Under the pieces are notes generated by a model, which did not search any database, was not told the DNA's origin, and was given only the letters and a program-made list of their open reading frames with translations. Positions 42,560 to 44,555 of a stretch of 64,000 bases of DNA are shown in pieces. Position numbers and translations under genes: made by a program. Positions within the stretch are counted from its first letter, which is position 1, and each line of letters begins with the position of its first letter. This DNA comes from Sphingomonas xanthus (GTDB taxonomy: Bacteria > Pseudomonadota > Alphaproteobacteria > Sphingomonadales > Sphingomonadaceae): the NCBI RefSeq assembly GCF_007998985.1, contig NZ_CP041659.1, positions 124,001 through 188,000 on the forward strand, read 5' to 3'.

Positions 42560-43315
42560 TTAAGCCTCGAGCGCGGCTTCCGCCGGCGGCTCGGCCATCG
42601 CGCCGATATCTTCACCGCGCGACTGGGCGCCACCGGTCTTGCCGGCACTGGCCGCACCGGCCACTGCTTCGCAATAAAGGCGGATGGCGCGGCTCGCGTC
42701 ATCATTGCCCGGGACGGGGAAAGCGATGCCCTGCGGGTTCGAATTGCTGTCGAGGACGGCAATGACCGGAATTCCCAGCACATTGGCTTCCTTGATCGCC
42801 AGCTCTTCCTTGTTCGTGTCGATCACGAACATCACGTCGGGCAGGCCGCCCATGTCGCGGATGCCGCCTAGCGAATTCTCGAGCTTGTCCCGCTCGCGGG
42901 TCAGCTGCAGCACTTCCTTCTTGGTGAGGCCGGCGGTGTCACCCGACAGCTGCTCTTCCAGGCTCTTGAAGCGCTTGATCGAGTTGGAGATGGTTTTCCA
43001 GTTGGTCAGCATGCCGCCGAGCCAGCGGTGGTTGACGAAATGTTGCCCGCTCGAACGGGCCGCTTCCGCTACCGCGTCCTGAGCCTGGCGCTTGGTGCCG
43101 ACGAACAGGACCTTGCCGCCGCGGGCGACGGTCTGCTGCACGAAATCGAGTGCGCGGGCGAACAGCGGAACGCTCTGCGACAGATCGATGATGTGCACGC
43201 CGTTGCGGTCGCCGAAGATGTACGGCTTCATCCGCGGGTTCCAGCGATGGGTCTGGTGGCCGAAGTGCGCTCCGGCTTCGAGCAATTGCTGCATGGTGAC
43301 GACATTGGTCGCCAT
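42560..43315 (-). CDS. rpsB: Ribosomal protein S2
   Basis: This 251-residue small-subunit protein starts at [20 protein letters not shown], preceded by GGAAGGAGACTATCCCT on the minus strand. [33 protein letters not shown] and [18 protein letters not shown] follow. The C-terminal tail is Ala/Glu-rich and ends EAALEA. It opens the minus-strand cluster through fabZ. Confidence 0.97.
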
Positions 43316-43470: not shown

Positions 43471-43485
43471 GAACGAAAAAGGAAC
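43471..43485. promoter_or_regulatory. LexA-type operator, box 1
   Basis: GAAC-GAAAAAG-GAAC, matching the alphaproteobacterial SOS box (GTTC-N7-GTTC, here read as its complement). It lies just upstream of a TTGACA -35 element at 43493. See boxes 2 and 3. Confidence 0.65.
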
Positions 43486-43492
43486 ATTGGCC

Positions 43493-43521
43493 TTGACAAG
43501 GTCAGAACATTACGGGAACAT
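43493..43521 (+). promoter_or_regulatory. Sigma-70 type promoter under LexA box 2
   Basis: A perfect TTGACA -35 (43493-43498) is followed after 17 bases by GAACAT (43516-43521), a weak -10. LexA box 2 covers part of the spacer and the -10, a layout suited to repression. The start codon of the small membrane protein is 82 bases downstream of the -10. Confidence 0.45.
43505..43519. promoter_or_regulatory. LexA-type operator, box 2
   Basis: GAAC-ATTACGG-GAAC, a direct repeat of GAAC with 7-base spacing. It overlaps the -10 element of the candidate promoter. Confidence 0.65.
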
Positions 43522-43564
43522 CACTCAAATCAGTGCCGCTGACGGCTGGTTTGGAACCCACCGT

Positions 43565-43579
43565 GTTCCTCAACTGTTC
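43565..43579. promoter_or_regulatory. LexA-type operator, box 3
   Basis: GTTC-CTCAACT-GTTC. A further inverted half-site GAAC at 43554-43557 is again 11 bases away from its neighbour, so three half-sites are in helical phase. The site lies 24 bases before the start codon, inside the leader. Confidence 0.65.
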
Positions 43580-43603
43580 AGCGCAAAACGAGAGGAACTG
43601 CCA

Positions 43604-43825
43604 ATGTTTGCCATGCTCGCCTCGGTCGTCGCTCTAGGGCTTGTCTTGGGATTGCTGGCCGGCATGGCGCGTCAGGACGGGGCGAAGGTCCTCGCTGCAC
43701 TTGCCGGTAATAGCTGGCTTGCAAATCCGCCTCAGGCCGCCCGGCCAATCACTGTCAGGCTCAGTTCGCGCCTTCAGGTGCAGCAGCCGCTGCGGGCAAA
43801 GCCCCGGCTGCGCGCCGCCGCTTGA
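43604..43825 (+). CDS. Small single-span membrane protein, probably SOS-induced
   Basis: This 73-residue protein begins MFAMLASVVALGLVLGLLAG, one hydrophobic membrane segment, followed by a soluble basic tail rich in Arg, Ala and Gln. The ATG at 43604 has AGAGGA about 9 bases upstream. Three LexA-type boxes precede it within 134 bases. Small single-span proteins under LexA control are known division inhibitors in Caulobacter (SidA), but no sequence similarity to SidA can be claimed. A division-inhibitor role is inferred. Its last 65 bases overlap the convergent pssA. Confidence 0.65.
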   Translation: MFAMLASVVALGLVLGLLAGMARQDGAKVLAALAGNSWLANPPQAARPITVRLSSRLQVQQPLRAKPRLRAAA

Positions 43826-44555
43826 CCCTGGCATAGCTGGCCATGCTGAACGGCAGCATCGCAAGATAGGCCAGCGATAGGATCAGCAACGTCGCCCAGG
43901 GCGCATTGAGCAACGCCGCGCCCAGCAGCGCGACACCGGCAAGCGCAAAAAGCCTCCACCCGCGACGGATGCGGATCGAGGTCCAGCTATAGGTCGGGAC
44001 GCTCGAAATCATCAGCAAGGCGATAAACAGCGTCCAGGGAAGCACCAGCACCCAGCTGCGAAACAGATCGTTCCCGCTGATCAGCCACACATAAATGGGC
44101 ATGAAGGCCAGTCCCGCGCCCGCCGGCGCCGGGACCCCGGTATTGAACCCGGCGGACTTGTGCGGCTGGTCACCGGAATCGATCCGGGCGTTGAAGCGCG
44201 CAAGTCGCAAGGCGCAGCACACCGCCAGCGCCAAAGCGGCAATCCAGCCGAATCGCGGAGCATCCTGCAGCGACCAAAGGAAGACGATCAGCGCGGGCGC
44301 CGTACCGAAGGCAATATTGTCCGACAGGCTGTCGAGTTCCGCGCCGAACCGGCTTTGGGCCTTGAGCAAACGGGCGATGCGGCCGTCAAAACCGTCAAGC
44401 ACCCCCGCCAGCACAATGGAGGCCAGCGCCTGCGGCCAGTCGCCAGTGATCGCGAAGCGCACGCCCGTCAGGCCGAAACACAGCGCCAGCACCGTAATCG
44501 CGTTGGGCGCGAACGCCCGAAGCGGGATGCCCCGCTGGTCGGACAGCTCGCTCAC
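43761..44555 (-). CDS. pssA: CDP-diacylglycerol-serine O-phosphatidyltransferase
   Basis: This 264-residue membrane enzyme makes phosphatidylserine. The CDP-alcohol phosphotransferase motif is seen in full: [20 protein letters not shown], then LDSLSD. Eight or so membrane segments follow. It uses the CDP-diacylglycerol made by CdsA, encoded 4 kb away. It overlaps psd by 4 bases; psd uses its product. Confidence 0.95.

Follow-up and report, generated by a model that had tools for sequence, protein, structure and literature searches.

Between rpsB and pssA of Sphingomonas xanthus lies a small gene whose product is a 73-residue membrane protein. Conserved boxes and a reading frame conserved together with them strongly support its control by LexA. 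Our preferred reading of the whole arrangement, on balance slightly favoured, is that of a LexA-repressed, short-lived division inhibitor and a functional analogue of SidA, YneA and SosA. Its support at the level of sequence consists of conserved boxes around the promoter, a selected ORF, an N-terminal span, a basic tail and a mostly Ala-Ala end. Since small one-span SOS proteins of Caulobacter and Staphylococcus are described as blocking division (PMC4211646, PMC6851548), we lean by analogy, if only by a little, towards the same role for the protein presented here.

Table 1. Positions (numbered from the first letter of the window) of the boxes, the putative promoter, the small gene and its neighbours
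Feature	Position	Strand	Description
LexA-type box 1	43471-43485	-	GAACGAAAAAGGAAC; minus strand reads GTTCCTTTTTCGTTC; 5' of the -35 hexamer
-35-like hexamer TTGACA	43493-43498	+	read from sequence
LexA-type box 2	43505-43519	-	GAACATTACGGGAAC; within the promoter; core conserved box of the family
-10-like hexamer GAACAT	43516-43521	+	17 bp after TTGACA; its bases 1-4 form the right half-site of box 2
LexA-type box 3	43565-43579	+	GTTCCTCAACTGTTC; in the predicted 5' leader
Small ORF, 73 residues	43604-43825 (incl. stop)	+	one membrane helix at the N-terminus followed by a short helix; tail basic and disordered; ends in RAAA
Last three Ala codons GCC GCC GCT and stop TGA	43814-43825	+	antisense to PssA Val-Lys-Arg-Arg-Arg; candidate ClpXP-type degron
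pssA	43761-44555	-	convergent neighbour, adjoins psd; 3' end overlaps the last 65 nt of the small gene
rpsB (ribosomal protein S2)	42560-43315	-	divergent neighbour; in relatives adjacent often, not always

The window, i.e. the whole stretch of 64,000 nucleotides that was analysed, contains six GTTC-N7-GTTC boxes against 1.83 expected, a number reached in 2 of 100 shuffles. The first-pass annotation had placed three of them at 43471, 43505 and 43565, had assumed about two boxes per window by chance and had called the triple improbable. All of this was borne out: the motif scan of the window found the three boxes as exact matches 5' of the small ORF, and three boxes within 110 bp never arose when the window was shuffled 400 times with dinucleotides preserved, and arose in 13 of 20000 trials in which the genome's 71 boxes were placed at random. 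The genome-wide scan for clustering, suggested in the same annotation, returned this cluster as the sole triple in 2.23 Mb. The remaining boxes of the window (31789, 34088 and 50188) sit within long ORFs. Genome-wide, the motif is only weakly enriched (71 boxes vs 58 for a reversed-pattern control); thus, single boxes say little, and it is the cluster and its conservation that bear weight.

As for the promoter, box 2 had been thought to overlap TTGACA. This had to be corrected, as box 2 starts 6 bases after this hexamer and shares bases with GAACAT instead. With the right half-site of box 2 lying within GAACAT, bound LexA would lie over both the spacer and the -10 region. A strict sigma-70 scan of the window listed no promoter at TTGACA/GAACAT, because GAACAT matches TATAAT poorly.

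The genome encodes lexA itself, with the box GTTCCCTATTCGTTC just upstream, and the LexA motif described for Caulobacter (PMC12700426) equals the GTTC-N7-GTTC motif seen here. Box context was read around 20 places out of the 71 sites. Boxes precede recA, uvrA, the RadA gene (where the box falls inside another reading frame), a gene for a C-5 cytosine DNA methylase and two radical-SAM genes, and many other sites of the 71 lie within ORFs and look like chance occurrences. The radical-SAM genes, at G000:C1:103169 (L005) and G000:C1:854087 (L156), have the LexA-type box at most 60 bp from the start and encode, respectively, a PA0069-family protein and a 'putative DNA modification/repair radical SAM protein'; the box of the former, GTTCTTGTTATGTTC, is identical to that given for two early Caulobacter SOS genes (PMC12700426). 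The methylase gene (L163, G000:C1:1709656) has GTTCCTGTTATGTTC as its box, some 47 bp ahead of the start, and possibly encodes an SOS-controlled methyltransferase. The only other pair of boxes less than 300 bp apart in the genome (553820/553831) belongs to a tandem of three GTTC half-sites with 11 bp spacing at G000:C1:553820-553845. In the relative Sphingopyxis granuli, lexA, recA, radA and imuAB are described as induced in anoxia, and the authors think that division is arrested upon anoxia entry (PMC6472365).

Hydropathy and an AlphaFold2 model both support the earlier description of the product as a small protein that spans the membrane once and has a basic tail. In the model, helices occupy residues 2-24 and 26-33 while the remainder is unstructured (mean pLDDT 69.5; about 93 over the first 20 residues and about 51-63 in the tail). 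Across the set of 67 loci described below, with start codons picked by eye from the ribosome site and the alignment, the proteins are 67-98 residues long and have one strongly hydrophobic stretch, which starts 0-8 residues from the N-terminus and is preceded by no Lys or Arg in 66 of the 67. The tail contains 6-16 Lys and Arg residues, with a median net charge of +6, and is predicted to be cytoplasmic by the positive-inside rule. Alignments showed four parts to be conserved best, namely the span, the short stretch K-I-x-A-A-L-x-G, the motif R-P-V-x-V-R and the C-terminus. The small protein matched nothing in Pfam or NCBIfam above cut-off; the sole Pfam row was FUN14 (E 0.053, below cut-off), so that the LysM domain looked for with YneA and ChiZ in mind did not appear. 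A protein search with the single sequence yielded 0 of 47 candidates at E 0.01, and a profile of 24 relatives was therefore needed. On the other strand, the pssA product is a CDP-alcohol phosphatidyltransferase (Pfam PF01066, above cut-off), for which the NCBIfam pssA model was the best match, although under its cut-off (95.3 of 107 bits), and the nearby psd encodes phosphatidylserine decarboxylase.

We examined the conservation of the gene at several levels. The window protein matched 25 of 61 genomes (37 of the same genus, own genome included, and 24 from other families of the order), none of the matches being in the latter 24. After weak matches elsewhere than at this locus (L032, L034 and L035) had been dropped, a homologue at this very locus was counted in 24 of the 37 same-genus genomes, again with the own genome included, and a strict box lay upstream of it in every one of the 24. 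Named members include Sphingomonas cremea and S. edaphi (search with a four-row alignment) as well as S. kaistensis and S. humi (profile search).

Within the family, profile A1 matched 40 of 298 genomes (15 of 96 genera). The wider profile A2 matched 122 of 298 (52 of 96 genera) at E 0.01 and, in the genus, added the members G002, G006, G013, G018 and G023; the A2 tallies for family and genus at E 0.01 contain weak matches inside long ORFs. After removal of duplicate genus loci (L038, L039 and L041) and of ten matches without locus sequence from the A1 search, 27 further family loci remained, in which pssA adjoins the gene in 27 and a strict box is present in 26. When 5.8 billion proteins were searched with a profile, 2224 relatives were retrieved at E 0.001. 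Among the 120 of these that were listed, none had a Pfam domain, and the names were 'hypothetical' or 'uncharacterized', with one 'involved in response to NO'. A diverged branch of nine proteins was named in Erythrobacteraceae (Altericroceibacterium, Altererythrobacter and Alteripontixanthobacter). Class-wide, matches were obtained in 3 of 289 genomes, namely the own genome and two weak ones (E 8.2e-4 with an internal stop, and E 9.6e-4) which we judged to be noise.

A draw independent of the protein was made by following rpsB in one genome from each of 29 genera of the family and in 24 genomes from outside the family but within the order. Of these 24, 22 yielded a locus, which in two cases is short and extends 441 and 727 nt past rpsB. 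A strict box was found beyond rpsB in 20 of the 29 family genera vs 0 of the 22 other-family loci (Fisher p 1.7e-7), and all 20 box-bearing loci have a one-span ORF. In three further genera (G063, G065 and G080) the gene with its boxes is absent at rpsB and sits at pssA, and in two (G072 and G082) the rpsB locus ends at a contig end and the gene is present at pssA. When pssA was followed as well, 26 of the 29 genera had a box and 25 had both a strict box and a one-span ORF. Two genera (L105 and L113) have the ORF with a box carrying one mismatch, bringing the ORF to 27 of 29 genera, and in one (G085) the gene is absent at rpsB and pssA gave no match. In another (G067, locus L197), there is a LexA-type box at a distance of 324 bp past pssA, and no clear small membrane ORF comes after it, possibly owing to gene loss or a start-codon problem. 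On the pssA side of other families, 21 loci were read, and in the 19 with more than 1 kb beyond pssA no box and no ORF of this kind occurred within the stretch checked.

The 24 genus loci, 27 loci from the family search and 16 loci from the rpsB draw make up the set of 67. A strict box lies at most 260 bp upstream in 64 of them (all except L046, L105 and L113), against 0.8% expected per 260 bp. The proposals that the boxes reflect LexA control and that homologues in other sphingomonads would carry the same boxes thus passed the conservation test, boxes and ORF being kept together in genus and family. TTGAC begins 9-12 nt ahead of the box in 54 of the 67 loci, and in 41 of these 54 GAACAT is present as well. 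Twelve loci have two boxes and ten have three, the third being in the leader; several relatives in the genus also have a box 34-35 bp upstream of the one in the promoter. These multiple boxes suggest tight repression.

With regard to the neighbourhood, the gene had been described as standing alone between rpsB and pssA. This holds for the window; in relatives, however, the constant partner is pssA (23 of the 24 genus loci, the remaining one lying at a contig end) and not rpsB. As the gene stays with pssA where rpsB lies elsewhere, we dropped the idea of the gene as a partner of rpsB.

The C-terminus of the small protein is AA in 64 of the 67 proteins and VA in three, though for the 16 loci of the rpsB draw this count is circular, as a C-terminal [AV]A filter had been used to select them. 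Among the 20 box-bearing rpsB-side loci taken unfiltered, 17 end in AA, and with pssA-side loci added 21 of 25 do so, the exceptions among these 25 genera being LFAV, DNLA, CVHA and LIRA. The tmRNA tag of the genome itself is ANDNEALAIAA, which the -AA end resembles. ClpX recognises ssrA-like C-terminal Ala ends. SsrA-tagged proteins are described as ClpXP substrates in Caulobacter (PMC5422525), and it can be inferred, with support from the sequence, that the C-terminal -AA is a ClpXP-type degron.

Because the C-terminus is encoded antisense to PssA, its conservation is partly confounded with that of PssA, and we therefore tested codon choice. All 64 loci with an overlap have the 3' end of the small gene antisense to pssA in the same phase (for a few of them the overlap length is overestimated because the PssA alignment continued past a stop, which leaves the phase unaffected). 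The PssA codon opposite the stop of the small gene is AAG in 36, AGG in 27 and ACG in one of these. Hence, where Arg stands opposite the stop, it is encoded in every case (27 of 27, each with confirmed pssA) by AGG, a codon that makes up 4.4% of PssA Arg codons elsewhere; a count over 66 loci (AGG 28 of 28) included L025 and L125, in whose loci no pssA was seen and which were excluded. Any CGN codon at this position would destroy the stop of the small gene, so the usage of AGG points to selection on the stop. The loci are related and p-values on codons overstate the evidence; with one locus per genus, a safer figure, Arg is AGG in seven of seven and the other eight genera have AAG. The next two PssA positions vary between Arg/Gln and Arg/Gln/Leu and are mostly CGG, CAG and CTG, all of them synonymous (Ala) for the small gene, and Arg at these positions is mostly encoded by CGG (47 of 50 cases at the first and 34 of 43 at the second, against a background of 31%; 66 loci). 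From these antisense codons, both the stop and the Ala end of the small gene appear to be selected. In one locus (L051) the overlap with pssA is absent and the C-terminus is still RLAA. Genome G066 (locus L125) has no pssA match at E 1e-10, whereas box and ORF, the latter ending in LRAAA, remain; here the small gene and a psd-like frame converge directly, which looks as though a pssA between them had been lost, and such a loss, if recent, would weaken this genome as evidence for independent selection on the C-terminus. Outside the overlap, pN/pS was 0.07-0.68 in the 24 closest pairs. Over all pairs pN nearly equals pS (medians 0.46 vs 0.63 within the genus and 0.55 vs 0.65 outside), which may mean either fast evolution or saturation.

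A mechanism combining these features might be as follows. Upon DNA damage, LexA would undergo RecA-stimulated self-cleavage and the promoter would be freed. The protein would then insert with its N-terminus outside and, in line with the positive-inside rule, its basic tail in the cytoplasm, and could hold back a late, membrane-bound step of division, the most plausible candidate target being the FtsW/FtsI/FtsN complex. After LexA recovers, ClpXP or a similar protease might clear the protein via its ssrA-like C-terminus, and division would resume.

Comparison with known inhibitors gives both likenesses and differences. By description, SidA of Caulobacter crescentus is likewise a small inner-membrane protein of the SOS-induced type, from the same class and with a GTTC-N7-GTTC box. 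However, SidA, for which FtsW is given as the target, has 29 residues vs 67-98 here and no room for a long basic tail (PMC4211646), and Caulobacter SOS promoters, as surveyed in PMC12700426, mostly carry a single box (about 97%) vs three at the small gene. DidA of Caulobacter, also likened by description, is small (71 residues) with one span and short flanking domains and is described as blocking division through FtsN/FtsW, but its induction is SOS-independent (DriD) whereas the small gene has conserved LexA boxes (PMC4211646). SosA of Staphylococcus, in the account of PMC6851548, shares the size (77 aa), the single N-terminal span, SOS induction, a conserved chromosomal place and a C-terminal end that bears on turnover. 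Its tail is extracellular, though, while the tail in the small protein is predicted to be cytoplasmic with an ssrA-like end, and the protease proposed for SosA, and described as clearing YneA too, is CtpA (PMC6851548), whereas the candidate route here is the ssrA-like end; we count this difference against our reading. YneA of Bacillus is SOS-inducible and reported to bind FtsW (PMC13396833), but bears a LysM domain (PMC6851548), to which the small protein has no match. Both SosA and YneA also differ in place, the small gene being convergent with pssA.

Several other explanations have to be weighed against a division inhibitor. TisB and DinQ of E. coli are small one-span SOS proteins too, and the gene might encode a LexA-controlled peptide of this type, which would lower membrane potential and slow metabolism (tolerance) while leaving the divisome untouched. 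TisB is a shorter toxin of 29 aa with antisense RNA control. DinQ is described as a toxic one-span SOS-regulated peptide, likewise shorter and under antisense RNA control (PMC3567139). The logic of the regulon would be the same, an SOS-type promoter driving a small hydrophobic protein with a single span, and the presence of two or three boxes in 22 of the 67 loci suggests that leakage is harmful; the small protein is, however, longer than TisB, and its conserved basic tail of about 45 residues meets no obvious need in a depolariser. We consider this explanation unlikely. The same holds, to a similar degree, for another SOS role at the membrane, for instance in remodelling motility, secretion or envelope enzymes or in anchoring a repair factor. 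Anionic lipid, nucleic acid and protein are all conceivable ligands of the basic tail, and the computed data fix no target; against this, the small one-span SOS proteins SidA and SosA are described as inhibitors of division (PMC4211646, PMC6851548).

A somewhat more doubtful possibility is SOS control of phospholipid synthesis, in which the protein, or an antisense transcript into pssA, would lower PssA activity and thereby slow envelope growth and division. The constancy of pssA as a neighbour in genus and in the 27 further loci, also in the three genera where rpsB is not adjacent, speaks in its favour, as do the constant phase of the overlap and a plus-strand terminator scan that lists no terminator before 45400. 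Yet selection acts on the small protein itself, as judged from pN/pS and codon choice, G066 keeps box and ORF with no match to pssA, and the gene in L051 does not overlap pssA. Finally, the boxes could have arisen by chance ahead of a spurious ORF. The weak genome-wide enrichment of the motif, the lack of any Pfam or NCBIfam model over cut-off and the empty single-sequence search would fit, but ORF and box are conserved family-wide, the codons are locked in pssA and the profile retrieved its 2224 homologues; genus and family conservation, the PssA codons and the statistics of the triple refute this explanation, to which we assign almost no probability.

Sphingomonads are common bacteria of soil, water and biodegradation. 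Our literature search, with subscription papers largely outside its coverage, found no description of the small gene and no SOS division inhibitor for sphingomonads, and where a source names the protein, it is nearly always 'hypothetical protein'. A division inhibitor, if confirmed, would provide sphingomonads with an SOS inhibitor whose ORF is present in 27 of the 29 sampled genera. A broader and rather improbable extension would make it a checkpoint protein of the SOS response throughout the family, in sphingomonads as well as Erythrobacteraceae, with an Ala-Ala off-switch for cytoplasmic ClpXP encoded antisense within the phosphatidylserine synthase gene pssA, mutual codon constraint between the two genes and a division block possibly coupled to phospholipid synthesis. 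Boxes, stop and C-terminus are held while the rest drifts fast, which offers a natural alignment for locating residues of target contact and turnover.

What appears to be new here is the mostly -AA C-terminus resembling the tmRNA tag, together with PssA antisense codons indicative of a selected stop and Ala end. The overlap as such (43761-43825 in the window), convergent and constant in phase, with the rare AGG fixed by the opposite stop, is a clean and countable case of selection in overlapping genes.
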